A stretch of 64,000 nt of DNA. Origin: Rhizobium sp. L1K21. Its GTDB lineage: Bacteria > Pseudomonadota > Alphaproteobacteria > Rhizobiales > Rhizobiaceae. A program made the position numbers and the translations under genes. The notes under the pieces are model-generated. The model searched no databases, was not told where the DNA came from, and saw nothing but the letters and a program-made list of their open reading frames with translations. The stretch is taken from assembly GCF_024055895.1 (NCBI RefSeq), contig NZ_JAMXLE010000009.1:62001-126000 (forward strand), written 5' to 3'. This document shows, piece by piece, positions 19,525 through 39,602 of the stretch. How positions within the stretch are numbered: position 1 is the stretch's first letter; every line of letters starts with the position of its first letter.

Positions 19525-21147
19525 TCACACCGCCCTTTTATCGAAGACCAGATCGGAATAACCGTTGTTTTTGGCCGCCATGCAATGTGCGCGGTAATTG
19601 GCAAAACCGCCGACATACATGGACAAACCGGTGGGCTTGCCCTTGACGTTCGAACCGACCCACCAGGTTTGGGCCTTGCGAATGAGCGAGGGCTCGGCAA
19701 GGCGGAAAACCTCGTCCATCCATCGGTCCTCAGCCTCCTTGGTCACCTCGAAGGCGTCCAGGCCTTGCTTCTTCATATGACCGATCAAATCGGCGGCCCA
19801 TTCCACATCGTTCTCGGCAATGGTGATGAGGTTTGCGAGTGCGGCAGGACCGTTTGGACCACTGGTCGCAATCATGTTTGGAAAGCCCTCGACCAGAATA
19901 CCAAGATAGGAGCGCGGTCCCTCCTTCCACTTGTCTTTCAAAAGCACACCACCGCGTCCCACCACTTCAAAGGCCAACAGCGCGCCAGTCAATGCATCAT
20001 ATCCGGTGGCGAAGATGATGATGTCCAGTTCAACTTCACCTGACTCTGTGCGGATACCGTTTTCGGCGATTTCAACGATCGGGTCTTTCAGGCAATCCTT
20101 GAGATGGACATTGGGCAGATTGTACGTCTCGTAATATTCCGTATCCAGGCAGGGCCTGCGCGCGAAGATCGGATAACCGCGCGGCTTGAGCGCCTCGGCG
20201 ACCTCGGGATCCTCGACGATTTCTCCGATTTTATCGCGCACAAAGTCGGCAACCTGATCATTGGCAGCCTGATTGGACAACAGGTCGGAAAAGCAGGCCA
20301 GAAAGGTGTGCCCACCGTCCAGCCAGGCATGTTCCATCACATCTCTGCGCTGAGACGGCGGCAGGGAGAAAAAGGGCCGCGTCGACACAGGGCGCGTGCC
20401 ACCTGTCGGGTTCATCTTCATTGCCGCGCGCATTGCAGGATAATTGGCCTTCATTTCAGCCAGATACGCTTCATCAAGATCGTGATTACGCATCGGCAAG
20501 GTCCAGCTCGGTGTCCGCTGGAACACGAAAAACTCCCCGGCTTTGCGTCCAACCTCCTGGGTGATCTGGATGCCGGTCGATCCGGTACCAATGAGACCAA
20601 CACGCTTGCCGGTAAAATCGATTTCCTCGTGCGGCCATTTCTGCGCGCGATAAATCGGTCCCTTGAACCGTTCGATGCCTGCGATGTCGGGATCTTTCGG
20701 GATGGACAGCGGGCCGGTCGACATGATGCAGAATGGGGCTTCCAGAACGGCACCGTCATCGGTTGTGCAGCGCCACAGTTTCTCTTCTTCATCCCATCTG
20801 GCGCTGGTGACGCGGGTGTTGAACCGGAAGTTCTTACGCAACTCCAGCCTGTCGGCTACGAAATTGGCATAGGCCAGGATTTCCGGCTGTGCGGCGAACT
20901 GCTCCGACCAGTTCCATTCCTGCTGAATTTCATCTGAGAAGCCGTAAGAGTAATCGACCGACATCAGGTCGCACCGCGCACCCGGATAGCGGTTCCAATA
21001 CCAGACACCACCGACGTCGCCTCCAGCCTCGATGCCGACGACGTTGTACCCTTCCTCACGGAACTTGTAGACGGCATACATGCCGCCGAAACCTGCTCCT
21101 ACCACTATAATATCGACGCGTTCGGCGCTCTGAATAGTCCTGCTCAT
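19525..21147 (-). CDS. Baeyer-Villiger-type flavoprotein monooxygenase
   Basis: 540-residue class B flavoprotein monooxygenase (cyclohexanone/phenylacetone monooxygenase-like), normally inserting oxygen next to a ketone using NADPH and FAD to give an ester or lactone. FAD motif GAGFGG is at 17-22, the conserved GGVWYWNRYPG at about 46-56 and NADPH motif GTGSTG at 187-192. The family fingerprint FxGxxxHxxxW is present as FKGPIYRAQKW (161-171), but its His is Arg167. ATG 21147 has GGAGGAG upstream. It is the last gene of an operon with a flavin reductase, an acyl-CoA ligase and an SMP-30 lactonase, which supports ring oxidation to a lactone. The His replacement may alter coupling or chemistry. 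Confidence 0.88.
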   Translation of the reverse strand: MSRTIQSAERVDIIVVGAGFGGMYAVYKFREEGYNVVGIEAGGDVGGVWYWNRYPGARCDLMSVDYSYGFSDEIQQEWNWSEQFAAQPEILAYANFVADRLELRKNFRFNTRVTSARWDEEEKLWRCTTDDGAVLEAPFCIMSTGPLSIPKDPDIAGIERFKGPIYRAQKWPHEEIDFTGKRVGLIGTGSTGIQITQEVGRKAGEFFVFQRTPSWTLPMRNHDLDEAYLAEMKANYPAMRAAMKMNPTGGTRPVSTRPFFSLPPSQRRDVMEHAWLDGGHTFLACFSDLLSNQAANDQVADFVRDKIGEIVEDPEVAEALKPRGYPIFARRPCLDTEYYETYNLPNVHLKDCLKDPIVEIAENGIRTESGEVELDIIIFATGYDALTGALLAFEVVGRGGVLLKDKWKEGPRSYLGILVEGFPNMIATSGPNGPAALANLITIAENDVEWAADLIGHMKKQGLDAFEVTKEAEDRWMDEVFRLAEPSLIRKAQTWWVGSNVKGKPTGLSMYVGGFANYRAHCMAAKNNGYSDLVFDKRAV

Positions 21148-21189
21148 AAAACCGCTCCTCCGGAATAGAATAAGATGTGCTGCTCGACC

Positions 21190-21714
21190 TCACTCGGGTG
21201 CGACACGACGGAAGAACCCGTCGCGATAGAGCAGTGCGTTGAATTCGGTGCTTGTGACGGCGACGACGCGGCCAAAGAGCACTTCATGCGTGCCATGGAT
21301 GAGCGACTGCTCCAGCACGCAGTCAAAGGAACTGACCGACTCTTCAAGGATCGGGGCTCCAGTCTTGAGGCCAGTCCAACGGCCCAAAGCAAGCCGCGCC
21401 TCACCTTTCAGCTCATGATTGGAAAATGCGCGCGCCAGATCCGATTGCTGCTCACTCAGGAAATTGACCGCGAAAGCTCCATTTTCCCCCACAAGGCTCA
21501 GCATTTTCGCCCGCCGGTTCACACAGACAACAATGGTCGGCGGATTGGTCGTCACCGAACATATCGCTGTTGCTGTCAGGCCGTTGCGGCCACGTGGTGA
21601 GCGCGCCGTGATCACGGCAACCGGCGACACGACACGCCGCATTGCATGTTTGTATTCTGCTTCCGACACTGCGTCCGGCAGGTCTTGAACGTCTTTTGGC
21701 GAAACCAATTCCAC
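21190..21714 (-). CDS. Flavin reductase family protein
   Basis: 174-residue NAD(P)H:flavin oxidoreductase of the HpaC/RutF-like split-barrel type, supplying reduced flavin to a partner oxygenase. The FMN-binding segment RNGLTATAICSVTTNPPTIV and the C-terminal LLYRDGFFRRV block are typical. I prefer GTG 21714 (VELVSPKDV), which overlaps the upstream gene; the longer frame runs back inside that gene. Ribosome-binding site is weak (AGGCGG). It lies 42 bases before the BVMO-like gene. Classic BVMOs need no separate reductase, so the pairing is worth noting. Confidence 0.87.
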   Translation of the reverse strand: MELVSPKDVQDLPDAVSEAEYKHAMRRVVSPVAVITARSPRGRNGLTATAICSVTTNPPTIVVCVNRRAKMLSLVGENGAFAVNFLSEQQSDLARAFSNHELKGEARLALGRWTGLKTGAPILEESVSSFDCVLEQSLIHGTHEVLFGRVVAVTSTEFNALLYRDGFFRRVAPE

Positions 21715-21724
21715 TGAGCGCCGC

Positions 21725-22252
21725 CTATTCGTGCTTGGGAAAAAGTGCGTAGACAGGATCGTGCGGCATGTTTGAGCCGATTGGCGCACGTGGCCCGAAC
21801 CTTTCTGCCTCACTGTCCTTTGGTGGCTCTTGGTGTTCGACCCAGTCGTAAACGACCGTTCGCTTCAGAACGCGCCATTCGTCGCCACGCTTTTCGAAAA
21901 GGTCGCAGTAGCGCCCACACAGCAGCACCTGACGCTCGATCCCGTCGGCACCTGTTCCGCGCTGGAAGGCAATGAAATAGGTCTCGACGGCTGCCTGTCC
22001 ATTATCGAGAAACTCGATCAGGATATTTCCCACATTGTGAATGTTGCGGGGCCCTGTCTTCCAGACAGCCCTCGCCATTTCGAAAAACCCTTCGACAGGC
22101 CCGTCGTAGGCGCCGTGGCAATCATGCGCATCAGGCCAGTAGGAAGAAACGAGTGCTGCCTCGTCGGCCCGGTCAATGCCTCGGCAATACCGGTGAATGC
22201 AGTCGCGGATCGCTTCCTTGTCCAAAAGCGCGTCAAGTTTCGGATCGCTCAT
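21725..22252 (-). CDS. SnoaL/NTF2-like domain protein
   Basis: 175-residue cytoplasmic protein with one NTF2/SnoaL_4-type domain. The N-terminal [23 protein letters not shown] helix and the C-terminal [16 protein letters not shown] strand pair are the family pattern. Members act as small isomerases, dehydratases, hydrolases or oxygenase beta-like subunits. ATG 22252 has GGAGG 4 bases upstream and overlaps the stop of the acyl-CoA ligase gene by four bases (ATGA). Within a ring-oxidation operon it could isomerise or dehydrate an intermediate; no direct evidence. Confidence 0.8.
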
Positions 22253-24366
22253 TGTTCCTCCAGCGTCTTCATTTGCATGAGTGCATCCAGCGCCACGACG
22301 CCTTGTCCTTCCGGCAGCACCCTGACGGGATTAAGATCGATCCCCGATATACGGTCGCGATGGGCCGCGGCGAAACGCGATAGATCACTCAAGAGCCCCG
22401 CCAGCGCATCAACATCAGCTGGCGGTTCGCCGCGCACGCCCTCAAGCATCGGATAGCCGCGGATTTCCCGGATCATGCGGTGCGCCTCCTGAAGCCCGAA
22501 AGGCACCACGCGGAATGTCACATCCTTCAGCACTTCCACGAAAATGCCGCCAAGGCCGAACATCAGGATCGGACCGAAAACGGGATCGTCGTGAACGCCG
22601 ACGATGGTTTCGACGCCGCCCTTGACCATCGGGGCAACCAGCACACCCTCAATACGCGCCTCCGGCATCGCCTTACTGACGCGGGAGAGAATATCGTGCG
22701 TGGCTGAACGCACATCCTCTGGCGAAGTCAAGCCAAGTGCGACTCCCCCAATTTCAGTTTTGTGCGCAATGTCGGGTGAGCAGATTTTCAAAGCGACGGG
22801 GAAGCCGAGTGACTGCGCTGCCGCCGCGGCATCGTCTGCTGTCGTGGCGAGCCGTTCATCAGCAAACTGTAAACCGGCCTTTCTAAGCACCGCCTTTGCC
22901 GAAGCTTCACTGAGCGGCCCGTGAGGCAAGTCCATGGGGGCCATTGGATTGACTTGCCCATCCTTCCTGGCAAAAGCCTCAGCAAAATCGACCAATGCGC
23001 CAAAGGCGCGTGCCAGCTGCGCTCCATCTTCGTAGACCAGGAAGCCGTCCTCTTCATACTGCGCAACAACGTCCCGCGGTGCGGACATCGTCAAACCACG
23101 GATCGCTTCGCTGCGCGATGCCAGTCCAGCCATCAGAGATTCCCGAAGAGGTTTGGCAAAGCTTCGGCTGGACGGCCCTGTCCCCAGGATTGCGGAGAAG
23201 AAATCGTAGCCGCCTTTTTCCATCATCGTCCTGACGAAGGCGGTCAGTATCTCCCAGTCGCTCACAGCCTGCGCGGTGGCATCCACCGGGTTTGCCGGTG
23301 AGGCAAAGGGCAAAAGAGCCTTGAGTTCGGCCTGCGCGGAATCTGGCATGGCTGCGACGTCCAGCCCGGCATCGGTGCAATCGTCCGCAAGCTGGATACC
23401 GAACCCGCCCGACATGGTGAAGATGCCGACCTTGTTGGCAGACGGAAACCGACCGCGGGCGGCCGCATAGGCAATATCGATCTGCTCAGCTGTGGTGCGT
23501 GCACGGTAGACGCCATGCTGCCTGAGCACGGCATCGAAAACAGCGTCGGAACCGGCCAGGGATGCCGTGTGTGACTGCGCCGCCTTGGCGCCCGCCTCCG
23601 TCCTGCCCGTTTTCATGAAGACCACGGCTTTGCCCGCGCGTCGCGCACGCTCCAGCGCTGCCCGGAATCTGTCGCCGTCGCCAATCCCTTCGGCATAGGC
23701 CATCACAACCTGTGTTTCCGGCTGGTCAATGACATATTCCAGAGCCTCAGCCATGCTGATATCCATCTCGTTGCCCGTGGTGATCCACTGGCTGAGACCC
23801 AAGCCCCGAGCGCGCGCCAAATGCGCCAGATGCGAACCGTAAGCACCGCTTTGCGAAACAACGGCCACAGGCCCCGGCTTCAACAACTCGCCATCCAGAA
23901 TGACCGTGAAAGTGCCATAATAGCCGGTCGCGGGGTTCATCACGCCAAGGCAGTTTGGCCCAAGAAGCCGCATTCCGCCTTTTCGCGCAGTCTCCGCGAT
24001 CTGTTCCTGCAGAGCTGCGCCTTCGGCGTCGGCCTCTGCGAAACCGGCTGAGAAGACCACGCCGGATGAAACGCCGCGTGCAACACAGTCTTCGACCGCC
24101 GAAAACGTACCTGCCGCTGGCAGGGCAAGAATGACCGTATCGGGAACCTCGGGAAGATCGGCGATAGAGGGATAGGCCTTCAGCCCCTGCACCTCTGTCC
24201 GCTTCGGGTTGACCGGATAAATCGCCCCCGCATAACCCGCCTCACGCATGAAACGCAGCGGGCGGCCGCCGATACGCCGTACGTCGTCGGATGCCCCAAC
24301 CAATGCAACACTGCGTGGAGCGATGAGCGACGTAAAGGCGTTTGTCTTTGAATGTATCTCAGCCAC
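22249..24366 (-). CDS. ADP-forming acyl-CoA synthetase (acetate-CoA ligase family)
   Basis: 705-residue single-chain nucleoside-diphosphate-forming acyl-CoA synthetase. Order: CoA-binding domain (VALVGASDD near residue 16 onward), succinyl-CoA-ligase-like domain with the phospho-His motif [14 protein letters not shown], then a C-terminal ATP-grasp domain with [19 protein letters not shown]. It activates a carboxylic acid to a CoA thioester. The start is GTG 24366, which overlaps the SMP-30 gene by 8 bases, with GAGG upstream. It probably activates the hydroxyacid released by the lactonase encoded just before it (inferred). It resembles the second copy at 41102-43210 in architecture. Confidence 0.9.
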
Positions 24367-25249
24367 CGAACTTGAACCTCGGTTCCGGAAGACCCTTTAT
24401 GCCAAGGCCCTCAAGTGCAAAAATGTGGCCACCATAGGGGTGGCGGGAAATGGCACGCCCCGAGCCCGAATCCTTGATCGACGTCATGTAAAGCGTATCC
24501 ATGTCCGGGCCGCCGAAGGTAATGCAGCTCGGCATATCCACCGGAGCCTCAACCAGCCGATCCAGCTTGCCATCCGGTGAAAAGCGTCCGATCTTGCCCA
24601 CATGTACCAATGCAACCCAGATGAAGCCTTCGGCATCAACGGTCGCGCCATCGGGGCCGGAGCCATGCTTGCTGGTGTCGATGTGCGCGCGTGGCTCAGT
24701 TAAGGGGTCACTCTCGGGCGAATAGTGGTAGGCTCTGATCTGGCGATCCAGACTGTCAGAGAAATAGAATGTCTCTCCATCTGGGCTGAAGCAAATCGAA
24801 TTCGAAATCCGGATTCCCGATGCGAGCCGCTCAACCTTTTGTTTGCCGGTAATGCGAACAAGTTCAGCGACAGGATCGGCATGAACACCCATGGTGCCAC
24901 AGACAAAACGACCTTGTCTGTCAACCTTGCCGTCGTTGAACCGAACGCGATCATCCTTGGGCTCAGGACGATAAAGTGGTTCCAGTGCGCCGGTTGCCAG
25001 ATCGACCAGATAGATCCCATCGCGCAATCCGGTGATCAACCGCCCCACATCTTCTGTGAGCCCTACACACCCGACCATTGAAGGCATTTCCACTTCGGAG
25101 AGCCGGTCTTCGGCATAGTCGAGATAACGGATCAGGCGTCTTGCACCATCGACCCAATAAAGCCGCCCGATGCGCTCGTCCCATACCGGGCTTTCGCCCA
25201 GCAGGTCCGGCCTGTCGGCAATGCGGGTTGCTATGATTGTAAGTGTCAT
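24359..25249 (-). CDS. SMP-30/gluconolactonase family lactonase
   Basis: 296-residue six-bladed beta-propeller calcium-dependent lactonase. Family features include the N-terminal LLGESPVWDERIGRLYWVDG (metal-ligand Glu) and ISNSICFSPDGETFYFSDS (Asn and Asp ligands). ATG 25249 has GGAG 7 bases upstream; the longer frame overlaps the binding-protein gene and is rejected. It hydrolyses a lactone, which fits a BVMO product from this operon. Sugar lactonase activity is the alternative. Located 56 bases after the ABC binding protein gene. Confidence 0.88.
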   Translation of the reverse strand: MTLTIIATRIADRPDLLGESPVWDERIGRLYWVDGARRLIRYLDYAEDRLSEVEMPSMVGCVGLTEDVGRLITGLRDGIYLVDLATGALEPLYRPEPKDDRVRFNDGKVDRQGRFVCGTMGVHADPVAELVRITGKQKVERLASGIRISNSICFSPDGETFYFSDSLDRQIRAYHYSPESDPLTEPRAHIDTSKHGSGPDGATVDAEGFIWVALVHVGKIGRFSPDGKLDRLVEAPVDMPSCITFGGPDMDTLYMTSIKDSGSGRAISRHPYGGHIFALEGLGIKGLPEPRFKFGG

Positions 25250-25305
25250 GAAAACTCCGGGAATTCTTGATGCATGGCCCGGTTTCCCGGGCCATGCAGC
25301 CGGAT

Positions 25306-26526
25306 TTATTTCTTCACCAGCGGGCAAGCGCTTTCTTCAAGCGGCGGCCAAACATCCTTGGCGTCCAGCTTGCCGATGATCTTGTAGTAGTCCCAATCAC
25401 CGGTGGACTCGGCAGGCGTTTTCACCTGCACCTGCAGCATGTCGCGGAAGACAACACCGTCTTCCCGGATCGATGCCTTTGTGAACAGATCATCGACCGG
25501 CATTTCGCGCATGTTCGACATGACGTCGTCGCCTGCATCAGAGCCAGCTGCTTCAATGGCCTTCAGATAATGATCTACCGCAGAGTAGGTTACGGTCTGG
25601 GACTCGTTTGGTTTGCGGCCGTTCATTGCCTCGCTCCACTTTTCAGAGAAGGCGCGCGTTTCCGGGCTCTGGTCCCAGTAAGCCGGTGCAGCAGCAATCA
25701 GGCCCTGCATGGTTTCCAGGCCGATACCGTCAACGTTGTTTACCTGCATGCCCAAAGGCGCAAGCTTCTGGCCGGCTTCAGCAATACCGAATTCCTTTGC
25801 CTGTTTGAGAACGTTCGCCAGGTCGGATCCCGCATTTGCAATCCCGATCACCTTTGCGCCAGAAGCCTGTGCCTGCAAAAGCTGCGAAGAGAAATCGTTG
25901 GCACCGAGCGGGTGAAGAACCGATCCCAATACCTTACCGCCATTGGCCTCGATGAATTTGGTGGCATCCTCCTGCCACGCCTTCCCGAACGTGTAGTCAA
26001 CGGTAATAAAGTACCACTCGTCCAGCCCTTGGGCGAGCTGCGACATCACGGACCCCTTGGCAAGCGTGTAGGTGTTGTATGCCCAGTTGGTGTTATAGGC
26101 TGTACACTTGGAATTCGTCGTCTCTGTCGTTGCCGTACCGGCGATCAAATACGGCTTCTTATGCGTTGCCATAATATCCGACACAGCAAGCGCGATGGAT
26201 GAAGCAGAGCAGCCGACAATGGCGTCAACGCCTTCATTCTCCACCCACTTCAGCGCTTGGGCCGCACCAATATCCGGCTTGTTCTGGTCGTCTGCGACAA
26301 CCACCTCAATGGGAACCCCATTGATTGCCCCGCCATGGTTTTCAACCGCCATCTTGACCGAAACCACCGAGCCTTGCCCGCAGTTGTCGGCATATGGGCC
26401 AGACTGGTCGTTCATGACCCCGATCCGAATGACCCCGTCCGAAATCTCGGCATGGGCTGGAACTGACGACAAGGACGTAGCCGCCAGGAATGCGGCAGCG
26501 AGGCTGCCTTTCCGGAAATAATTCAT
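25306..26526 (-). CDS. Liv-type ABC transporter substrate-binding protein
   Basis: 406-residue periplasmic binding protein of the branched-chain amino acid/urea type (type 1 periplasmic fold). The N-terminus MNYFRKGSLAAAFLAATSLS with cleavage near AHAEI is a Sec signal peptide, and RIGVMNDQSGPYADNCGQG follows. ATG 26526 has GGGAGG 6 bases upstream. Relatives bind amino acids but also aromatic and alicyclic acids. Its permeases and ATPases are encoded at 28.4-31.7 kb across the IclR gene, which links the two operons into one system. Confidence 0.9.
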   Translation of the reverse strand: MNYFRKGSLAAAFLAATSLSSVPAHAEISDGVIRIGVMNDQSGPYADNCGQGSVVSVKMAVENHGGAINGVPIEVVVADDQNKPDIGAAQALKWVENEGVDAIVGCSASSIALAVSDIMATHKKPYLIAGTATTETTNSKCTAYNTNWAYNTYTLAKGSVMSQLAQGLDEWYFITVDYTFGKAWQEDATKFIEANGGKVLGSVLHPLGANDFSSQLLQAQASGAKVIGIANAGSDLANVLKQAKEFGIAEAGQKLAPLGMQVNNVDGIGLETMQGLIAAAPAYWDQSPETRAFSEKWSEAMNGRKPNESQTVTYSAVDHYLKAIEAAGSDAGDDVMSNMREMPVDDLFTKASIREDGVVFRDMLQVQVKTPAESTGDWDYYKIIGKLDAKDVWPPLEESACPLVKK

Positions 26527-26583
26527 GTTTCACCTCCCGTTATTGTGGGCGAATCCTCTCAAAAATCGCCCGTTTCACCTCGC

Positions 26584-27342
26584 CTAAGAGAAGGCGTAGG
26601 TTATTCCTCCATCCACAAACAGCATATCGCCGGTAATGAACGACGCCTCCTCCGAGGCCAGAAAAACTGCCGCATCTGCCATATCCGATGGTTTGCCCAG
26701 ACGGCGGATCGGAACCCGTTCACGTCTTCGCTCCCAGCCCTCCTCGGTGACAACGCGCAGCGCTCCATCGGTCTGCGTCGGTCCAGGAGCAATCGCGTTC
26801 ACGCGTATATTGTCCGGCCCGAACTCAGCAGCGCCCGAACGGGTCGCCGCCGCAACAGCAGCCTTGACGGCGCTGTACATAATGCCATCCTTCATGGCGA
26901 GGACGGCCGAAGGAGATGCAATATTGACGATCGCACCGCCGCCCGCCTCACGCATTTGCGGCAATACGGCCTGGTAACCCCAGATCACGCCCTTGAAACC
27001 AACATCAATCATCAGCCCGATTGTTTTCTCGTCCTGTTCTTCGAGCGGTCCATAACGGTTGAACATCGCATTGTTCACCAGCAACGTGACCGGTCCGAAC
27101 TCAGCTTTGAGAGTTTCGGCGGCGCTGAAAACATCCGCGCGCTTTGCGGCGTTTCCAGCAACGGCCAGCGCCCTGCCGCCTGCATTGCGAATTGCCTGCG
27201 CAACCTCCTCTGCAGGTTCCTCCTTCAGATCCAAAACGCCGACGGCAGCACCTTCGCGGGCATAGGCTTCACAAATGGCACGGCCAATTCCCATGCCGCC
27301 GCCTGTCACCAGCGCAACCTTGCCGCTCAGCCTCTTGGACAT
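26584..27342 (-). CDS. Short-chain dehydrogenase/reductase
   Basis: 252-residue classical SDR. The cofactor motif GGGMGIG is near residues 14-20, NNA in LLVNNAM, and the active-site Tyr and Lys in MYSAVKAA. These enzymes interconvert alcohols and ketones with NAD(P)H. ATG 27342 has GGGAGG 5 bases upstream. As the first gene of the BVMO operon it could oxidise a secondary alcohol to the ketone substrate of the BVMO, but direction and substrate are inferred. Divergent from the IclR gene. Confidence 0.9.
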   Translation of the reverse strand: MSKRLSGKVALVTGGGMGIGRAICEAYAREGAAVGVLDLKEEPAEEVAQAIRNAGGRALAVAGNAAKRADVFSAAETLKAEFGPVTLLVNNAMFNRYGPLEEQDEKTIGLMIDVGFKGVIWGYQAVLPQMREAGGGAIVNIASPSAVLAMKDGIMYSAVKAAVAAATRSGAAEFGPDNIRVNAIAPGPTQTDGALRVVTEEGWERRRERVPIRRLGKPSDMADAAVFLASEEASFITGDMLFVDGGITYAFS

Positions 27343-27536
27343 ATAGCCTCCCTGCCGCAAAAGCCTGCGCCTCTGCGATCCTTAAAATTCAATTCGCTCT
27401 TGTTCGCGGTAAAGTGCGGACTGTCAGGCTGCAGCTCGGCAACAGCCTAGTTTTACCAAGTCCGGACCTCCTCCAATCCTCTGTTACAGAGTGTGTCACA
27501 GCACGTTGAAAATGACCACGATTTTGTATATATGCA

Positions 27537-27548
27537 GTGAAATTTCAC
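27537..27548. promoter_or_regulatory. 12-bp perfect palindrome, candidate IclR operator
   Basis: GTGAAATTTCAC is perfectly palindromic and is followed at 27553 by the related ATGAAATTC, making a second inverted pair TTTCA-CATTTA-TGAAA (27544-27559). It lies 28 bases upstream of the preferred IclR start and about 195 bases upstream of the divergent SDR start, in an AT-rich stretch. Autoregulation by the IclR protein is likely. Confidence 0.6.
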
Positions 27549-27576
27549 ATTTATGAAATTCAAAGCAAGAGGCACC

Positions 27577-28356: not shown

Positions 28357-28374
28357 CGCCCGCAAAGGCACGGT

Positions 28375-30901: not shown

Positions 30902-31655
30902 CATCAACTCCCCCAAGGTAAGCGGCGATTACTCTCTCATCGGAAGACACCTCAGCATAATTGCCTTCCATCAGCACCTGCCCTGCCTGCAGCACCGTAA
31001 TGCGATCAGAGAGGGTCGAAACGACGGACAGATTGTGTTCAACAATCACGATCGTGCGATCCCGCGACACCTTGCGGATCAGCTCGGTGATCGGCTCGAT
31101 ATCTTCATGCCCCATACCGGCGGTCGGCTCGTCCAGCAGCATCACCTTCGGCTCCAGCGCAAGCGTTGTTGCAATTTCGAGCGCCCGTTTCTTGCCATAG
31201 GACAGTTCCGCAGCCTTCATATCACGCGCATCGGCGAGGCCAACCTGTTCAAGCAGGTCTTCGGCCCGTTCATTCAGCTTGTAGATTGAGCTGATTGGGC
31301 TCCAGAACCGCCATGCGCTGCCGTGGCTTGACTGGAGCGCAACCCGAACGTTTTGCAGCGCGGTCAGGTCCGTGAAAGTGGCCGATATCTGAAAGGACCG
31401 GACCATCCCCTTTTTCGCCACGTCGCTCGTGCGCAGTCTGGAGATGTCTTCGCCGTCCAGAATGATTTTCCCGGTGGAGGGCTGAAGCGTCTTGGTCAGA
31501 AGATTGAAACACGTCGTCTTGCCCGCGCCATTCGGGCCAATCAACGCATGGATTGCCCCGCGCCGAACCTTCAGATCGACGTTGTTGACTGCCCAAAACT
31601 CGCCAAATCTTTTGCCGATTCCTCGGGCTTCCAGTGCATATTCCGTATCTGCCAC
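30891..31655 (-). CDS. Liv-type ABC ATPase (LivG-like)
   Basis: 254-residue ATPase with Walker A GPNGAGKTTCF and Walker B VMLLDEPTAGMG. The signature is ELSYGKKRALEIA rather than LSGGQ, which is normal for LivG proteins. Start at ATG 31655. It is 23 bases downstream of the acyl-CoA dehydrogenase gene, so transporter and beta-oxidation genes share a transcript. Confidence 0.92.
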   Translation of the reverse strand: MADTEYALEARGIGKRFGEFWAVNNVDLKVRRGAIHALIGPNGAGKTTCFNLLTKTLQPSTGKIILDGEDISRLRTSDVAKKGMVRSFQISATFTDLTALQNVRVALQSSHGSAWRFWSPISSIYKLNERAEDLLEQVGLADARDMKAAELSYGKKRALEIATTLALEPKVMLLDEPTAGMGHEDIEPITELIRKVSRDRTIVIVEHNLSVVSTLSDRITVLQAGQVLMEGNYAEVSSDERVIAAYLGGVDDAA

Positions 31656-31678
31656 AGCGCTCCTCCCGATTGCGCAAC

Positions 31679-32842
31679 CTACCTGGGTAGACCGAGCACA
31701 CCTTTCGCCAGAACCTCTCTTTGAATCTCGTTCGAGCCGCCAAAGATTGCGGGGGCCCGACTATCGAGATAGAGGTTCATCGCATCCACATCGCCCTCTC
31801 CCGTGGGCAAGTCATCCCAGTATCGCGCTTCCTCTCCCGCGACACTCAATGTTTCTTCCGTGATACGCTGGTAGAGTTCGGAACTGAATATCTTCAGCAC
31901 GGAAACATCCGGCCCCAGCGTGCCGCCTGCCCGCAACACCCGCGCAAATCGTTCGAATGCGGAACCGAGATCAAACAGATCAAGCCTGAGCCTGGCATAT
32001 CGCGAAACAAAGCCTGCATCACTGAAGGCACCACGATCCCGGGCAAGGCGTTCCAACCGGCGCAGCGCGTAAGCAGGACGCGACGGCGCACCCAGAAAAA
32101 TACGTTCGTGACCCAGCACCGCCTTGGCCAGCGCCCAGCCCTGATCCACCTCGCCCACAACATTCTCGGAGGGAACATACACATTGTCAAAGAAGACCTC
32201 GCAGAAATCCGCCTCCAGACGCAGGTTCGGGATCGGACGCACCGTAACACCGGGCGTGGTCATGTCGACCAGCATCACGGTGATGCCGTTCTGCCGTTTC
32301 TTGCCGTCATTGCTGGTTCGCACCAGCAATAATATCCAGTTCGCGCAATGGGCCAGCGTCGTCCATATCTTCTGTCCGTTGACAATGAAGCCATCGCCAT
32401 CTGCAACAGCTGACGTCCTCAGCGAGGCCAGATCCGAGCCTGCATTCGGCTCCGAATAACCCTGGCACCAGACATGCTCACCGCTCAGTATCTTGGGCAG
32501 GAAAAAGTCTTTCTGCGCCTGTGTCCCGTATTGGATCAAGAGCGGGCCGGTCAGACCGATTCCGTGGTCGGGAATGCGCGGGCAGCCAAGCCGGGCCCAT
32601 TCCTCGACATAGACGATATGTTTGCCCGCATCCAAGCCCATGCCGCCGTATTCCTGTGGCCATACCGGCGACAACCAGCCTTTTTCGGCAAGGCGATGAT
32701 ACCATACCGATACTTCGTCAAAGAGCGGGCGCTGTTTGCGCATGAAACGCAGTTCGGCCGGGCAGTTTGCGTCTACCCATTCGGCAAATATCGCGCGGAA
32801 TTCTTCGTCGCTCAGCGCGTTCCAATCTTGCTGCTGTGCCAT
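31679..32842 (-). CDS. Acyl-CoA dehydrogenase (subunit 1 of a likely heteromer)
   Basis: 387-residue FAD acyl-CoA dehydrogenase. The FAD/substrate segment WCQGYSEPNAGSDLAS lies at about 125-140 and the C-terminal GGSNEIQREVLAKGVLGLPR at the end. The usual catalytic Glu of the YEG motif is Gly here, but E246 in GHERIFL is in the position used by isovaleryl- and long-chain-type enzymes. Start ATG 32842; the frame also has an upstream TTG. It overlaps no coding sequence but sits 2 bases after the hydratase stop. It probably pairs with the product of 33633-34757, as in heteromeric steroid-type dehydrogenases. Confidence 0.9.
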   Translation of the reverse strand: MAQQQDWNALSDEEFRAIFAEWVDANCPAELRFMRKQRPLFDEVSVWYHRLAEKGWLSPVWPQEYGGMGLDAGKHIVYVEEWARLGCPRIPDHGIGLTGPLLIQYGTQAQKDFFLPKILSGEHVWCQGYSEPNAGSDLASLRTSAVADGDGFIVNGQKIWTTLAHCANWILLLVRTSNDGKKRQNGITVMLVDMTTPGVTVRPIPNLRLEADFCEVFFDNVYVPSENVVGEVDQGWALAKAVLGHERIFLGAPSRPAYALRRLERLARDRGAFSDAGFVSRYARLRLDLFDLGSAFERFARVLRAGGTLGPDVSVLKIFSSELYQRITEETLSVAGEEARYWDDLPTGEGDVDAMNLYLDSRAPAIFGGSNEIQREVLAKGVLGLPR

Positions 32843-32844
32843 GA

Positions 32845-33621
32845 TCAATCGTCCGAAAAAACCGCAGGGCGCTTTTCAAGGAAGGCCGCCATCGCCTCCT
32901 TGCTGTCTGCCGTGCCTGTCATCTCAACTGTCAGGTTCTGCTCAAACCGATAGCCGTCCTTCAGACCCATGGTTTCGACCGTATTCAGCGCGCGTTTGGC
33001 CAGCTTGATTGCCGTCGGCGATTTCGAAGCGATATTGCGTGCCATGTCCATCGCAGTATCCATAAGCTCTTCGGGCTCGACACAGGCCTCGATAAGGCCG
33101 CGACGGTAAAGCTCTTCTGCGGGAACACGGTAGCCTGTCAGCACCATTCTTCGCGTGAGGCCAATCGGGAAAACACGCATCGTGTGGCGCACACCACCCA
33201 TCAGACCGATGTCGATTTCCGGCAGGCCGAAGACGGCGTTCCTGGATGCCACAATGATATCAGAACAAATCGCCAAACCCATGCCCGCACCCAGTGCAGG
33301 ACCGTTCACGGCGGCGATAACGGGAATGTTCATTTCCATGATCACGAAACCCACTTCGCGTGCGCGGCGCAAGTGGCGGTTGACTTCGCCCGGTTCCCAT
33401 TCGCTCTGCTTGGCCCGGTTCTTGATATCCGCACCGGCAGAAAAGACCTTGCCATTGGCAGTCAAGACAACGCAGCGCACGCCCTTTTTGTGGTTCAGTT
33501 CATCGAAGACCCCAATCAGCTCTTCCATGAAGTCCTTTGATTGCGCGTTCACCGGAGGGGCGTCCAGGGTGACGACGGCAATATGGTCTTCGATCACAGT
33601 CTTGATCAGATTGTTTTTCAT
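32845..33621 (-). CDS. Enoyl-CoA hydratase/isomerase family protein
   Basis: 258-residue crotonase-fold enzyme. Oxyanion-hole segments are SAGADIKNRAK and VNGPALGAGMGLA. The second has the usual loop, but the catalytic Glu pair is only partly recognisable (LPEIDIGLMGG). It hydrates enoyl-CoA or catalyses related steps. ATG 33621 has AGGAC upstream, and its open frame overlaps the next dehydrogenase gene; the TTG 33636 alternative is rejected. Lies between the two acyl-CoA dehydrogenase genes. Confidence 0.9.
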   Translation of the reverse strand: MKNNLIKTVIEDHIAVVTLDAPPVNAQSKDFMEELIGVFDELNHKKGVRCVVLTANGKVFSAGADIKNRAKQSEWEPGEVNRHLRRAREVGFVIMEMNIPVIAAVNGPALGAGMGLAICSDIIVASRNAVFGLPEIDIGLMGGVRHTMRVFPIGLTRRMVLTGYRVPAEELYRRGLIEACVEPEELMDTAMDMARNIASKSPTAIKLAKRALNTVETMGLKDGYRFEQNLTVEMTGTADSKEAMAAFLEKRPAVFSDD

Positions 33622-33632
33622 GTCCGGTCCTT

Positions 33633-34757
33633 TCAAGCCGCAACGCCTTCCAGCGCCACGAACTGCAGACGCAGCTCTTCGGGCTGCCCCAGCGTTGCAT
33701 TCAGGGCCACCGCCCGTTTCATAAAGAGTCCAATGTCGCAGGCATCGGTGAAACCCATCGCGCCGTGCAGATGGATTGCCCGCCTTGTGATGTTGACCGC
33801 GGCTTCACCCGCCCTTGCCTTGGCCGCAAGGATTGCCAGACGAGAGGCGTTATTCTGCCCCTCTGACAGCGTCTCCACGGCGTTCACGACAGCAGCAGAA
33901 GCAAATTCGGCTTCGCCCCACATATCCACCAAACGGTGCTGCACGACCTGAAACGAGCCAATAGCCTTGCCGAACTGCACACGCTCTTTCGCATAGGCAA
34001 CCGTCCGTTCGATTGCTGCCGTGGCAATGCCAGCCATCTCGGCTGCAAGAGCAAGCCGCGTCGTTGTAACGGCTGCATCCATGGCCACATCCACTTCACT
34101 GCCAATGGCCAGAAGCGCGTCCTCTTTGACCTTTACATCCGCTAAACTGAGCCTTCCCAACCGCGTTCCGTCCAATGTCGGAGCAGTCTCGATTCTCAAG
34201 CCTTCCGCACTCACAGGAAGCGAGACCAACATCTGTTTACCATCCGCTTCCGCCAGCACGATAAAGTCTGTTGCAGACGTGGGGGCGCTGACGTGTCGCA
34301 TCTCGCCAGACAGGCTGAATTCCTCTCCAACCTTGCGCGCTGAGACCGGCGCAGCTGCACCATCGCGGCCCTGCCATGCCGGAGACACCAGCGCCGTTCC
34401 GGCAATCAGTCCCTCCGCCAGTCTGGCGCACTCACCACCGCTGCAGTGGGACAGCAGCACGCTTGAAAAAATGCTCAGCTGCGCCAACGGCTCTGTCAGT
34501 AGGGCTCGACCAAGTGCCTCGCTCAATACTGCCTGTTCGGCAATGCCAAGACCGGCACCGCCCTTATCCTCAGGCAAAAGAAGACCCAACCATCCAGCCT
34601 CCGCCATCGCAGACCAGACCTCCCGATCGAGGTCACCACCGTTGTCACGCCGCGCCCGGAAAACGTCTGGCCCGGCATGCCGTGCAGAAAACCCCACGAC
34701 ACTGTCGCGCAGCATCTCCAGCGTACCGTCAGGGTCATCAAGGATCAGTCCGTTCAT
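33633..34757 (-). CDS. Acyl-CoA dehydrogenase (subunit 2 of a likely heteromer)
   Basis: 374-residue acyl-CoA dehydrogenase-like protein, diverged from the neighbour at 31679-32842. The [23 protein letters not shown] and [20 protein letters not shown] segments mark the C-terminal FAD-binding part. It ends before the region that carries the catalytic Glu in single-subunit enzymes. In steroid and terpenoid operons such a short partner supplies FAD contacts to a second subunit. ATG 34757 overlaps the ligase stop by four bases. Confidence 0.88.
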
Positions 34758-36406
34758 TCCGCCGCTCTCCCGCTTGTTTCGGCCAATTCAGGCAGTACAT
34801 ACTGTGCGTATTGTTTGCGCAGCTCCATCTTCTGCAGTTTTCCCGTTGCTGTGTGCGGCAGGCTTTCCACAAAGACGACGTCATCAGGCAACCACCATTT
34901 GGCAACAAAACCCATCAGAAATTGACGCAGTTCAGCCCTGTCTGGTGCCTCACCCTTTGGCACCACGACTAACAGCGGGCGCTCCTGCCACTTGGGGTGC
35001 GGCACGCCCACAACGGCGGCCTCGGCCACTTTGGGATGACGCATCGCTGCATCTTCGAGGTCGATGGAGGAAATCCATTCACCGCCCGATTTGATAACGT
35101 CTTTCGCCCGGTCTGTGATCCGCACAAAGCCATCCTCGCTCATCGTCGCGATATCACCGGTTGAGAACCAGCCATCGGCGTCCGGCCCCTTGCCTTCGCC
35201 GCCGAAATAGCCTGATGTGACCCATGGCCCGCGCACCTGCAACTCGCCGGGCGTCACGCCATCCGCCGCCAATTCGCGGCCTTCATCATCCATCAATCGC
35301 AATTCGACACCAAAAACCGGCCGGCCAGCCATACAGCGAAGATCGAAACGTCCATCGTCGCTTAACTCGTTATGCTTGAACAACGGATTGGCAACGGTTG
35401 CCACCGGCCCGGTTTCACTCATCCCCCAGGCCTGACGTGGAACCGCACCGATCGATTCCAATCGCCGCATTAGCGACTTCGGCGCCGCCGAACCGCCAAC
35501 AATCACTCGCTCCATCTTCAACTCCGAGCGCGCATCCAGACCGGAACCTTCAATGTAATCCATGAAACCCATCCAGACCGTTGGAACGCCGAGGGAGAAG
35601 GTGCAGCCCTCGGCCTTGGCAAGGTCGTAGAGGCTCTTCCCGTCGAGATGCGGGCCGGGCAAGACGAGCTTGGCACCGCACAGTGGCGAACCATGCGGCA
35701 CACCCCAGGCATTGACGTGGAACAGCGGCACGCAAAGAAGCGTACTGTCATGGTTTGAGAGCGCCAGGCCGTCGACCTGGCACAACATCATGGCGTGCAG
35801 CAGCGTTGAGCGATGTGAATAGAGCACACCCTTGGGATTGCCCGTGGTGCCCGATGTGTAGCAGAGACCGGAGGCTGTATTTTCATCAAAGACGGGCCAT
35901 TCAAACGCGCTCTGTTCGGGGGCAATCATGTCCTCGTAACAAAGCGACCCGTCGGGCATCCCATCCATATGCCCGCCATCTGTCATGGCGACATAGTTTT
36001 CGACATGCTCCAGCCCCGGGCGCAACTCAGATACCAGCGTGCTGAAGGTGATGTCATACATCAAAACCTTCGCCCCGGCATGGTTGATGATATAATTGAG
36101 TTGCTCGGGGAACAGCCGCGGATTGACCGTGTGAAGCACAGCACCAATTCCAGCAACGGCAAAGTAAAGCTCCAGGTGACGATGCGTATTCCAGGCAAGT
36201 GTCGCCACGCGGTCTCCATGCCCAACGCCCATCCGGATCAAAGCATTGGCAAGCTTGCGCGAGCGCTCCGCCAAGGTACGATAGCTATCCCTGCGCAGAT
36301 CGCCTTCGCACGTCTTCGAAACGATTTCCGTATTGGCGTGATAACGCGCTGCGTGCTCGAGCAAACCCGATATCAGAAGCGGGCGCTCCTGCATCAATCC
36401 AAGCAT
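34754..36406 (-). CDS. AMP-forming acyl-CoA synthetase
   Basis: 550-residue ANL-superfamily acyl-CoA ligase, activating a fatty or cyclic acid via an acyl-adenylate. The P-loop [10 protein letters not shown] is at 184-193, WGMSETGP follows near 335, and the C-terminal GKLQK carries the catalytic Lys. Overall pattern is close to medium-chain and methylthiopropionate-type ligases (family resemblance only). ATG 36406 has GGGAGG 7 bases upstream. First gene of the long minus-strand operon ending with the LivM-like permease; upstream 36407-36560 is the promoter. Confidence 0.92.
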
Positions 36407-36560
36407 CTTGTGACCTCCCGTTTACCGGATCAGCCTCCACTCCGATCCTTGGTGCATCTCGTCATAGCGGACCCACACTGTCAACAAAAACTCTTATGTG
36501 AATACAAACTTCACAGATGTGTAAAATGACGAGTGCAGCATGGGGAGGTCAGGTTCTGGA
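36407..36560 (-). promoter_or_regulatory. Promoter region of ligase/Liv operon with inverted repeats
   Basis: 154 bases between two minus-strand genes. Contains GTGAA-TACAAAC-TTCAC at 36498-36514 and, flanking it, an 8-bp inverted pair CTCGTCAT (36458-36465) and ATGACGAG (36526-36533). On the minus strand TTGACA occurs near 36485. The GTGAA/TTCAC half-sites resemble the palindrome beside the IclR gene, so the same regulator may act at both sites. Confidence 0.45.
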
Positions 36561-37358
36561 TTATGACGGAGAAAAGACCGGCTTGCGCTTTTCAAGAAAG
36601 GCCTGCAAGCCTTCTCCTGCCTCGCTTCCGTATCGCGCTTTGTTGATGTAGCGGCTCTCAAGTTCGATCTGTTCGGCAAGGCCATTAACCTGCGCCTGTG
36701 CGATTTCCCCTTTGATGACCGAAATGGCACCACTTGCGCCGACAGCGCAGGCGCGTGCGAGATCAAGCGCGGCATTCAGGGCTTCACCGTCGTCAGTCAG
36801 CATGTTGATGGCACCGGCTGCATATAATCTGTCTGCAGACGCCGGACGGCCCAGCATACAAAGCTCCGAAACCAGCTGACGCGGCAAACACTCCGACAGA
36901 AAATGCGTCGCACCGCCGTCGGGTGTCAGGCCGATCTTGACATAGGCGGCGGTAAACTTGGCCGAACCGGACGCAGCAATCATATCGCAGGAAAGTGCCA
37001 GCGACAGGCCAAGCCCTGCAGCGCCGCCTTCAACGGCAGCAATCACCGGTTTGGGACAATGTCGGATCGCAAGGATCATGGCTGCAAGAGCATCGGTATT
37101 GCGGCTAACCTCAGACAGCGGCTGGTTGCGCCCTTCTTTCAACGCCGACACATTGCCGCCTGACGAGAAGAAGCCACCGGCTCCCTGCAGTATGATTGCA
37201 CGGATTTGCGGGTCATTGCCCGCATCGACAATCTCGGCCCGCACGGCCTTGTATTGCGCCAGGCCAATGGAATTGCGCGTCCTCTCACCCTTGAGCGTGA
37301 GAAGCTTGATGTTGCTATCGACGACTTCAGAAAGCACCTGCGTTTCATTGTCATTCAT
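36561..37358 (-). CDS. Enoyl-CoA hydratase/isomerase family protein (second copy)
   Basis: 265-residue crotonase-fold protein, distinct from the one at 32845. Oxyanion segments are FFSSGGNVSALKEG and VEGGAAGLGLSLAL. The second catalytic region reads KIGLTPDGGATHFL, where isomerase-like members place Asp/Glu. ATG 37358 follows a GGGG tract. It is separated from the ligase operon by the promoter region, so it may belong to the SDR-fusion transcript. Hydration or isomerisation of a double bond is expected. Confidence 0.88.
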   Translation of the reverse strand: MNDNETQVLSEVVDSNIKLLTLKGERTRNSIGLAQYKAVRAEIVDAGNDPQIRAIILQGAGGFFSSGGNVSALKEGRNQPLSEVSRNTDALAAMILAIRHCPKPVIAAVEGGAAGLGLSLALSCDMIAASGSAKFTAAYVKIGLTPDGGATHFLSECLPRQLVSELCMLGRPASADRLYAAGAINMLTDDGEALNAALDLARACAVGASGAISVIKGEIAQAQVNGLAEQIELESRYINKARYGSEAGEGLQAFLEKRKPVFSPS

Positions 37359-37490
37359 TGAGCATCCCCTTTTTTCAAATTGGAGTGATCCAACAGCTCA
37401 ACCTGCCAATCTCCTGGCGGGACCATGGGCTTTCACAGATCAAAAGTGCTGCAGCTATTTTCGTTCCGGCGGGTGCTGCAACTGCAGCCA

Positions 37491-38729
37491 TCAAGACAAG
37501 CCGCTGGCTTCCAGCACTTGCCCAGTTATGTATGACGCATCATCGCCGATCATAAAGCGGCACAGTTCACCCAGGCCTTCAAGCGTTGGCCCCTGCCACA
37601 AAACCGTATTCACGCGCATACCCGATCCGGCCCACTCCAACGCCAGGGTGCGAGAGAGCATTGACAAAGCAGCGGCAGCAGCACGCGCCGAAGGGCTCTC
37701 CCCCCTGTCGACGACAAAGACCAGATTGAAATCCGGTGTTCGATTGGCAATTGCCGCGCAGGCTTTTGCAGATGAAAGCGCCCATTCCAGCATTTGCGCC
37801 GGTGTCAATGCACGGCCAAGAGCGCCCGCATCCACGACAGCTGCGAGCGGTTCGGCATCGGTCAGCGCATCGAAACGCGGCAATCCAAGCGTGCTCAAAT
37901 CCGACCGGTCATTCTGGCCAAGAAGTACAATATTTCCCTTTGAACTCGTGCCTTTTGGAGGGCCTTCCATTTCAGGCGGCGGCCCCATGGATCCGCCTCC
38001 ATCAACAAGCAGGCTCTGCCCATTGATGGTACGACCATGAGCAGAAGCAGAAAATGCAACCGCAGCAGCAATATCCTGAGGTGCCGCGAGGCGTCCCAAT
38101 GGAATGGTTGCGGAGACCTTTTTGAGATCGACCCGTCCCTCTCTCTCCAGCTCCTCCACAAGAGGCGTCAGCGTATAGCCCGGAGCGATTGCAACAACGC
38201 TGATCTGGCGCTCTTTCAACTGCGCGGCAAGTGCTGCGGTATATTCAACCACCCCGGCCTTGGTGGCGCTATAGGGGCCGCGCAGTGCCAGTGGCCGATA
38301 GGCAGCACCAGAGGCAAGGTTGACGATAGACGCACCGGGCGACAGGATTTTCGCAGCCGCTTCCGAAACACATTGAAGCGCCGTCAGGTTGACCGCGACG
38401 AGACGGTCAAATGCCGCCTGCGGGAGATCAAGCAAGGTGCGCCCGGAACTGTCCGTCACGCCCGCATTGTTGACAACAAGGTCCAGACCGCCAAGAGCAG
38501 CCTCAGCTTTTGCAGGCAAGGCATCGGCAGCTTGCGGATCGGTCAGGTCAACCTGAATGGCGACATGTCCGCCGCCCAACCGCTCAGCAACATGCCGGGC
38601 TTCCTCAATATCGATGTCGGCAACGGCGACACGGAATCCTTCGTTCGCAAGACGCTGGCAGATTGCCTGACCGATGCCTTTAGCGCCACCTGTCACCAAA
38701 GCGCGTCTGCGCTTGTTTTCCGTGTTCAT
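37491..38729 (-). CDS. SDR fused to a degenerate second SDR domain
   Basis: 412-residue protein. The N-terminal half is a complete classical SDR: TGGAKGIG (13-20), NNAG (87-90), Ser140, Tyr153 and Lys157. From about residue 255 a second half ends in an SDR-like tail (LEWAGSGMRVNTVLWQGPTL, SYITGQVLEASG) but has no glycine-rich cofactor motif and no YxxxK (Ala residues occupy that stretch). It is therefore a probable fusion of an active SDR with a non-catalytic SDR domain. ATG 38729 has GGGGAGG 9 bases upstream; an upstream GTG would place that site inside the coding region. Likely regulated from the palindrome at 38761-38776. Confidence 0.88.
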   Translation of the reverse strand: MNTENKRRRALVTGGAKGIGQAICQRLANEGFRVAVADIDIEEARHVAERLGGGHVAIQVDLTDPQAADALPAKAEAALGGLDLVVNNAGVTDSSGRTLLDLPQAAFDRLVAVNLTALQCVSEAAAKILSPGASIVNLASGAAYRPLALRGPYSATKAGVVEYTAALAAQLKERQISVVAIAPGYTLTPLVEELEREGRVDLKKVSATIPLGRLAAPQDIAAAVAFSASAHGRTINGQSLLVDGGGSMGPPPEMEGPPKGTSSKGNIVLLGQNDRSDLSTLGLPRFDALTDAEPLAAVVDAGALGRALTPAQMLEWALSSAKACAAIANRTPDFNLVFVVDRGESPSARAAAAALSMLSRTLALEWAGSGMRVNTVLWQGPTLEGLGELCRFMIGDDASYITGQVLEASGLS

Positions 38730-38760
38730 CTTGATCGCCTCCCCTGCGCTCACGCCTGCC

Positions 38761-39542: not shown

Positions 39543-39586
39543 CAGTCGATTCCCACGCATCTCAATTGCAAACAATTTGCCCCCTA

Positions 39587-39602
39587 CTGACCGGTCGGTC
39601 AA
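39587..39602. promoter_or_regulatory. Second TetR-type operator (imperfect palindrome)
   Basis: CTGACCGGTCGGTCAA region with central ACCGGT; 13 of 14 bases match the palindrome at 38761-38776. It is about 45 bases upstream of the preferred TetR start, consistent with autoregulation. Confidence 0.7.

Follow-up and report, generated by a model that had tools for sequence, protein, structure and literature searches.

The question raised by positions 19,525 to 38,729 of the 64,000-nucleotide stretch of Rhizobium sp. L1K21 DNA analysed here (contig NZ_JAMXLE010000009.1, positions 62,001 to 126,000; hereafter the window) is whether two neighbouring gene runs, which encode an oxygenase, a lactonase-like protein, an importer and enzymes acting on acyl-CoA esters, form one catabolic system and, if so, for what kind of substrate. 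The gene set, its conservation, an operator-like motif shared by both runs and the active-site residues of the products were computed. On this evidence we consider it probable that the genes form one system, controlled by an IclR-family regulator, which imports a ring compound, opens it by a Baeyer-Villiger reaction and degrades the product by beta-oxidation. A sequence-only reading of this DNA had proposed such a co-regulated system of import, Baeyer-Villiger oxidation, lactone hydrolysis, CoA activation and beta-oxidation, and the comparison with relatives described below supports that proposal well.

The stretch studied extends from the stop codon of the Baeyer-Villiger monooxygenase (BVMO) gene to an ATG within a 420-residue short-chain dehydrogenase (SDR) frame. 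From 19,525 to 38,753 there are two gene runs on the minus strand, with the IclR gene on the plus strand between them (27,553..28,356, longest open reading frame; PF09339 and PF01614). Operon A, read leftwards from its first gene, contains SDR1 (26,584..27,360; PF13561), a LivK-like periplasmic binding protein of the Liv type (25,306..26,526; PF13458; 3i09, E 1e-102), an SMP-30/gluconolactonase-type protein that is a probable lactonase (24,359..25,327; PF08450, E 9e-80), an ADP-forming acyl-CoA ligase (22,249..24,366; Pfam and NCBIfam), a SnoaL/LinA-like protein (21,725..22,252; PF13577, with a weak LinA match), an HpaC/RutF-like flavin reductase (21,190..21,711; PF01613) and the BVMO (19,525..21,147). 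The longest frame of the flavin reductase reaches 21,813; relatives suggest a start at about 21,711, and the homologue in locus L034 (L numbers denote loci of relatives) is 522 bp long. Operon B consists, in order, of SDR2 (37,491..38,753), the crotonase-fold protein ECH2 (36,561..37,358), an AMP-forming acyl-CoA ligase at the head of the conserved part of the operon (34,754..36,406; PF00501; 6ihk, E 5e-176), the acyl-CoA dehydrogenase subunit ACAD2 (33,633..34,757), a second crotonase-fold protein, ECH1 (32,845..33,636; Pfam), the subunit ACAD1 (31,679..32,848), the ATPases LivG (30,891..31,655; PF00005 and PF12399) and LivF (30,185..30,916; PF00005), and the permeases LivH (29,304..30,188) and LivM (28,375..29,304), both with PF02653; the Liv names denote likeness. 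From the AMP ligase (36,406) to LivM (28,375), neighbouring genes overlap or lie at most about 25 bp apart, and from the gene spacing each run appears to be a single transcript.

Protein families were assigned with Pfam and NCBIfam. Every family listed in the sequence-only reading was confirmed; its inventory had missed the SnoaL-fold protein and the flavin reductase. Among the rows shown, curated NCBIfam cut-offs were reached by ECH2 (alternative oxepin-CoA hydrolase, 306.8 against 300), ECH1 (PRK06495), the AMP ligase (PRK06187) and SDR1 (a general SDR subfamily). Since few such cut-offs were reached, we infer all names finer than the domain level. The Liv-type importer set is complete according to Pfam, with one binding protein, two permeases and two ATPases, and it is indeed divided between the operons, LivK lying in operon A and LivM, LivH, LivF and LivG in operon B.

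The contigs of named genomes were scanned with an alignment of five BVMO sequences, and the best 80 loci were retained; the counts obtained are lower bounds. Fifty-five of these BVMOs showed 57-81% identity and 25 showed 43-47%, the latter serving as outgroup and control loci. A quick tree of 85 rows split 60 clade members (the 55 genome loci, four plasmid copies and the window) from the 25 outgroup rows with a Shimodaira-Hasegawa-like approximate likelihood ratio (SH-aLRT) support of 100. Using partner identity cut-offs set after the data were seen, the following genes were found within 10 kb of the 55 clade BVMOs: SMP-30 at 32 loci, IclR at 28, the AMP ligase and ECH1 at 26 each, SnoaL at 23, LivK at 21, LivM at 20, LivH and LivG at 17 each, LivF at 16, ACAD1 at 14, SDR1 at 13, the ADP ligase at 12, ACAD2 at 11 and the flavin reductase at 9, these counts being lowered by several loci that stop at contig ends. 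With the same cut-offs, every partner scored 0 at the 25 control loci, which do have weaker hits (e.g. SDR1 in 16 and ECH1 in 5). The neighbourhood comparison that the sequence-only reading had proposed thus showed recurrence of the partners among the 55 clade loci and none at the controls. At least one gene of each half lay within 10 kb of the BVMO at 35 of the 55 loci and genes of one half only at 13, so that the halves do not occur independently in most relatives. An IclR of at least 45% identity was present at 17 of the 55 loci; in eight of these its immediate neighbours were SDR1 and an operon-B gene, in five SDR1 and the BVMO, and SDR1 orthologues of 71% identity or more adjoin IclR in relatives.

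SMP-30 was used to search twelve hand-picked genomes in which operon A is wholly or largely missing from the surroundings of the BVMO. A match was found in all 12 (59-66% identity in six, 44-46% in five and 35% in one). In the six genomes with a 59-66% match (L161-L166), the SMP-30 gene adjoins LivK in the arrangement SnoaL/(ADP ligase)/SMP-30/LivK/SDR1 with a divergent IclR, and operon-B genes lie in the same or an extending stretch in five of the six; in Gemmobacter, operon-B genes begin about 65 kb away, with operator sites ahead of them. Since the SMP-30/LivK genes and operon-B genes occur together in these genomes, the halves appear to travel jointly, and it is the BVMO gene that moves around. 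Whole-genome co-occurrence was uninformative for the BVMO because no match above 48% at E 1e-150 or better was found in the other 384 genomes of the class, nor another above 47% in a sample of 199 genomes of the order. The importer type varies among relatives: the 16 sphingomonad/Caulobacterales-type loci checked have no Liv genes at the cut-offs (one has hits of 28-29%), and several of these loci carry TonB receptors or MFS transporters. Gene content conserved relative to control BVMO loci, together with the shared operator-like motif, points to more than chance co-location.

This motif is the palindrome TTTCACANNTGTGAAA, located between IclR and operon A in the 20 loci that formed the training set of a weight matrix. 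The exact dyad TTCAC-N4-GTGAA is present in nine of the 20 divergent IclR/SDR1 gaps; in 100 mononucleotide shuffles of the gaps, no dyad occurred more than twice. Among the dyads found before 23 AMP ligases, TCACA-N2 (6) and TTCAC-N4 (5) are the commonest, but GC-rich ones reach 4. Predicted operator 1, between IclR and SDR1 (TTTCATAAATGTGAAA on the minus strand; 27,543..27,558), is the top site of the window, scoring 24.7 with a matrix built without the rows WIN, L034 and L039. IclR may truly start at an internal Met at 27,577, which would free operator 1. Predicted operator 2 (TTACACATCTGTGAAG on the minus strand; 36,509..36,524) lies about 110 bp before the AMP ligase. A promoter scan of 27,300-28,450 gave nothing scoring above shuffles.

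At a score of 14 or more, sites preceded 10 of 31 AMP ligase genes and 17 of 58 BVMO genes; when 3000 random 360-bp stretches were drawn from these loci, 1.4% had a site. At 15 or more and with stricter identity, they preceded 11 of 24 AMP ligases, 17 of 58 BVMOs, four of eight Old Yellow Enzyme (OYE) genes and four of 15 ACAD2 genes; at this score, permuted matrices gave a mean of at most 0.10 per set, with a largest single value of 2. A reduced count at the same score, leaving out seven loci fetched for having a site, gave 7/20, 17/58, 3/7 and 3/11, respectively. In that count no site preceded LivG (0/13), LivF, LivH or LivM (0/15 each), ACAD1 (0/14), SMP-30 (0/20) or the flavin reductase (0/5). 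The three ACAD2 sites belong to L049-L051, and because the AMP ligase is elsewhere in these loci, the sites appear to stand mainly at the heads of units. Some BVMO genes located away from the operons, by about 12 kb or more in L043, L045 and L046 and on another contig in L042, likewise have a site in front of them; these are the strongest argument that the BVMO belongs to the predicted regulon. Genome-wide, with up to two mismatches, 51 sites were found in seven genomes, 19 of them at system genes (coordinates read by hand; two of 15 in the L1K21 genome), and a reversed control pattern gave 18 sites in all. The same palindrome at both halves supports a single IclR regulon.

The BVMO (PAMO/STMO branch) aligns over its full length with phenylacetone monooxygenase (PAMO; 1w4x, E 2e-170). 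Both Rossmann motifs (GxGxx[GA]) are kept, as GAGFGG and GTGSTG, and so is the fingerprint [AG]GxWxxxx[FY]P[GM]xxxD, as GGVWYWNRYPGARCD, the Asp of which is present in all 60 clade members. The fingerprint FxGxxxHxxxW[PD] is not matched and reads FKGPIYRAQKWP, for which reason the product is called here a BVMO-clade protein. At the fingerprint-His position, the clade has Arg in 40, Leu in 8, His in 7, Tyr in 3 and Met in 2 sequences; thus, the His is absent in 53 of 60 members, while all 25 outgroup members have it. Such a loss would be expected if the protein had abandoned Baeyer-Villiger chemistry for another oxidation, e.g. N- or S-oxygenation, or had become an NADPH oxidase. We regard this as highly improbable, since the other fingerprint and both Rossmann motifs are intact, Arg331 and Asp60 (aligned with PAMO Arg337 and Asp66, which we take to be catalytic residues) are invariant in the census, and lactonase and CoA enzymes are frequent companions. 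The BVMO-clade protein probably works like a BVMO. According to the available text of PMC4498894, 121 BVMOs were curated by both fingerprints, and that of PMC6058054 describes BVMO mining with the same motif; therefore, such screens would exclude most of this clade. The motif departures are not wholly new, as sequences near the BVMO clade without typical motifs, fungal ones, are already reported in the accessible part of PMC10682829.

The residues of the partner enzymes bear on what follows the oxygenation; the counts include the window. The four metal-site residues of SMP-30 (Glu, Asn, Asn and Asp, matched to what we take to be regucalcin numbering) are kept in 41 of 41 or 42 of 42 sequences. 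The SnoaL-fold protein has its Asp-His dyad in 33 of 33, the ADP-forming ligase has His266 in 25 of 25, and the Glu248 position of ACAD1 is Glu in 42 of 43. An SMP-30 protein with all four metal-site residues fits lactones best. The same regulon could also serve an acyclic or aryl ketone, which the BVMO would turn into an ester, SMP-30 acting as an esterase and the remaining enzymes degrading a branched acid; the nearest solved BVMOs, phenylacetone and steroid monooxygenases, would suit this, as would the resemblance of the AMP ligase to a methylthiopropionate-type ligase, below the cut-off of that family. We consider this unlikely, because it sits poorly with the lactone preference of such SMP-30 proteins, with the likeness of the ACAD pair to heteromers that presumably act on bulky cyclic CoA esters, with the lack of an aromatic ring-cleavage gene among the Pfam domains of the cluster and with an operator-bearing ene-reductase in relatives.

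ACAD1 (a PimC/ChsE4-like subunit with Glu248; best PDB matches 4x28_A and 6wy9) and ACAD2 (a PimD/IpdE2/Tcur3481-like partner subunit; 6wy8, E 3e-30) match both chain kinds of 4x28, which we take to be ChsE4-ChsE5, and of Tcur3483-Tcur3481 (6wy8/6wy9), with the Glu on one of them. On a Variovorax plasmid (L036, 15,525-17,855), ACAD2 and ACAD1 are fused as one gene, the sole pointer to their assembling into one enzyme. The sequence-only reading had listed two unlike acyl-CoA dehydrogenases; they are unlike, and they are probably one heteromer rather than separate enzymes. These PDB matches, the match of ACAD2 to IpdE2 and the closeness of the BVMO to steroid monooxygenase could instead indicate partial breakdown of a steroid-like or polycyclic-terpenoid-like acid, in which the BVMO opens one ring and the ACAD heteromer acts on the side chain or ring acid. 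The similarity is distant, however, no steroid-specific NCBIfam row shown reached its curated cut-off, and to our knowledge a Liv importer would be unusual for steroids; this explanation therefore seems quite unlikely, more so than the acyclic one.

A classical enoyl-CoA hydratase presumably uses two catalytic Glu residues, numbered 144 and 164. ECH1 lacks the former in 31 of 31 sequences (Gly in 29 and Ala in 2) and keeps the latter in 32 of 32, and is more likely of the isomerase or hydrolase type than a hydratase. ECH2, assigned by Pfam and NCBIfam, has a PaaG-type single Asp147, with Ser at the 144-equivalent (window sequence only). Neither protein is thus a classical two-Glu hydratase, and the earlier description of the pair as two hydratases does not hold. 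An ECH2 homologue occupies the same place in L189 (59%), and L188 has one (66%) about 2.5 kb away from the head of the operon. SDR2, examined by Pfam, NCBIfam and a motif check, has an SDR domain followed by a decayed one, about 145 residues without TGxxxGxG or YxxxK motifs. In eight of nine relatives examined, its counterpart is one frame with two motif-intact SDR domains, and L040 is decayed like the window. BbsCD is a pair of an active SDR and a pseudo-enzyme; the tandem SDRs were rejected as such a pair because of the intact domains in eight of nine relatives.

Seven loci have an Old Yellow Enzyme ene-reductase of 61-69% identity (the query itself in L044) at most 10 kb from the BVMO, and in six of them it adjoins the BVMO or is one gene away; two of the 25 control loci have hits of 32-37%. 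Three of the seven, plus L186, carry an operator. Since the L1K21 genome contains only a 30% homologue, elsewhere, this suggests that some strains use cyclic enones and L1K21 saturated ketones or alcohols. A luciferase-like monooxygenase (57-59%) is present in or beside the cluster in L161, L166 and L190, and in Gemmobacter its gene and that of the AMP ligase are divergent, and operator sites lie in the space between the two. It was rejected as a camphor-type BVMO, matching 3,6-diketocamphane monooxygenase only at E 2e-6. The best matches in the L1K21 genome are 28% and 39% (partial), on another contig, neither of them a close homologue such as a camphor-type (type II) BVMO route would call for.

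We infer every reaction, the order of steps and the direction of IclR control. LivKHMGF would import a small organic ring compound, and SDR1 would oxidise a ring alcohol to the ketone, into which the BVMO would insert oxygen to give a lactone (or ester). The SMP-30 protein would hydrolyse the lactone to a hydroxy-acid, which the AMP-forming and/or the ADP-forming ligase would convert to a CoA ester. The ACAD1-ACAD2 heteromer would then desaturate this ester, the crotonases, the SnoaL-fold protein and SDR2 would shift the double bond or hydrate it and would oxidise the hydroxyl group, and the chain would be shortened by beta-oxidation. Because of the enzyme types and the ene-reductase of relatives, which has no close homologue in L1K21, the substrate would be an alicyclic ketone or alcohol, possibly derived from a terpenoid.

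Several observations weigh against this single-system reading. The presence of the palindrome in all 20 IclR/SDR1 gaps is circular, as the matrix was built from them. Operator 2, at 17.5, ranks only second among the sites of the window; ten shuffled windows gave top scores of 11.5 to 22.8, and because two exceeded 17.5, operator 2 is not significant alone and draws its support from sites at the same place in relatives. In the reduced count, 13 of the 20 AMP ligases and 41 of the 58 BVMOs lacked a site of 15 or more, including most Comamonadaceae and sphingomonad copies, and 1/15 ECH1, 1/29 LivK, 2/17 ADP ligase and 3/29 SnoaL genes were preceded by a site as well. No scored partner was found within 10 kb at seven of the 55 clade loci, and ACAD1 homologues of 47-59% occur without the clade BVMO in nine others of 385 genomes. 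Arg167 of the BVMO occupies the position of PAMO His173, and the substrates of the SMP-30 protein may be esters of another kind. In the L1K21 genome no partner for the flavin reductase is obvious, and since a luciferase-like monooxygenase is only distantly matched there, the reductase may be an orphan.

Copies of the system were also sought on plasmids by tblastn of the BVMO against PLSDB, with the best 20 of 128 records listed. Among these, the BVMO was found on plasmids of Pseudosulfitobacter pseudonitzschiae (80%), Variovorax PBL-E5, Variovorax SRS16 and Comamonas antarctica (63%) and Novosphingobium RL4 (57%), the others being below 48%. LivK again matched Pseudosulfitobacter, Variovorax and Comamonas plasmids, with second-best matches of 56% on Bradyrhizobium plasmids, and the best plasmid matches of ACAD2 were Pseudosulfitobacter and Variovorax records. 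When the window genes were mapped on the four plasmid BVMO records other than SRS16, the gene content overlapped but the gene order differed, and the Novosphingobium stretch lacked Liv genes. A search for repC gave three matches, on contigs C9, C3 and C2, and none on C4, which does not indicate a plasmid location of the window. As a separate observation, L092, a locus titled Pantoea sp. 18069, is placed by the tree with the BVMO of the Comamonas plasmid and has similar partners, which may reflect transfer or a mixed assembly.

A broader and more tentative proposal, which we hold to be possible rather than probable, is that the regulon is widespread among marine and soil Proteobacteria, moves horizontally and serves to degrade a natural alicyclic compound of common occurrence (an enone or alcohol derived from a terpenoid or carotenoid), by means of a BVMO clade that has given up the canonical fingerprint His and that fingerprint-based mining would therefore miss or discard. 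The abstract of PMC4498894 describes the physiological substrates and roles of BVMOs as widely unknown. The present analysis connects a PAMO-branch BVMO with a predicted pathway that is complete and with a single transcription factor, whose 16-bp operator can be tested. If this connection is true, an unassigned BVMO clade would gain a native role, the fingerprint His used in BVMO curation would be dispensable, and a Liv importer would be linked to ring-opening catabolism.

Beyond operon B, a TetR-family regulator (38,928..39,848, minus strand, longest frame; true start probably about 100 residues in) has homologues of 57-64% in L034, L045 and L046, and its membership of the system is less certain. 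A possible extension on the minus strand (41,102..47,498) encodes a second ADP-forming ligase, an NMT1-like binding protein, a DUF1254/DUF1214 protein and DctM, and genes akin to the DUF1254 or ADP-ligase ones lie near some clade BVMOs. The DUF1254/DUF1214 protein (44,275-45,555, minus strand) has homologues of 38-41% near the clade BVMO in L046, L068, L076 and L077; a control BVMO also has one nearby, of 24%. A carotenoid-oxygenase-family (RPE65) gene (3,136-4,821, minus strand), some 15 kb distant from the BVMO of the window, is next to an MFS transporter; its product could supply ring-ketone substrates or act on stilbenes. Elsewhere, 8,284-18,993 holds a sugar cluster with an ABC importer, an FGGY kinase, a DeoR regulator, a fused aldolase-SDR and a rhamnose-isomerase-like protein, and 49,291-57,369 (minus strand), with a LigB dioxygenase, aldehyde dehydrogenases, a fumarylacetoacetate hydrolase and an HpcH aldolase, looks like an aromatic ring-cleavage pathway. 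Strong AT-skew peaks at permease genes (10,001-12,000 and 28,001-30,000) are probably a coding effect.

The sequence-only reading had called the system undescribed, which holds for the literature searched: no description of the cluster was found among the Baeyer-Villiger papers listed, judged by titles and abstract openings. The Sphingobium AntQ-1 anthraquinone cluster was rejected as a counterpart, its first BVMO being luciferase-like and its type I BVMO having the standard fingerprint in the accessible part of PMC9836352. Among single components, the BVMO shares end-to-end homology with the type I phenylacetone and steroid monooxygenases (PAMO, E 2e-170) and differs in its replaced fingerprint His and in having 46% identity to a Thermobifida fusca locus. 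The ACAD subunits resemble the heteromers 4x28 and 6wy8/6wy9 in matching both chain kinds and in their adjacent genes, fused in Variovorax, whereas their sequences are distant and the Pfam domains of the cluster include no steroid genes. The nearest known logic appears to be the carveol/dihydrocarvone route of Rhodococcus erythropolis DCL14, which, in the available text of PMC4097962, runs from carveol through carvone, dihydrocarvone, the lactone and the hydroxy-acid to the CoA ester, with a dehydrogenase, carvone reductase, monocyclic monoterpene ketone monooxygenase, epsilon-lactone hydrolase and CoA/beta-oxidation enzymes. The order of chemistry would be the same, and some relatives have an operator-bearing ene-reductase; unlike DCL14, the cluster has an SMP-30 lactonase, a PAMO-branch BVMO with an altered fingerprint, Liv import and an IclR regulator, and L1K21 has only the 30% ene-reductase homologue. 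The camphor pathway of Pseudomonas putida (camABCDEFG), as far as the accessible accounts describe it, likewise combines Baeyer-Villiger lactonisation, a CoA ligase and further oxidation and is plasmid-borne, as are BVMO copies of relatives, but no P450 or diketocamphane-type monooxygenase is among the Pfam domains of the present cluster. Neither a Liv importer nor an ADP-forming ligase is mentioned in the available parts of the DCL14 and camphor accounts. By analogy, the cluster would work like the DCL14 and camphor routes while being a member of neither.

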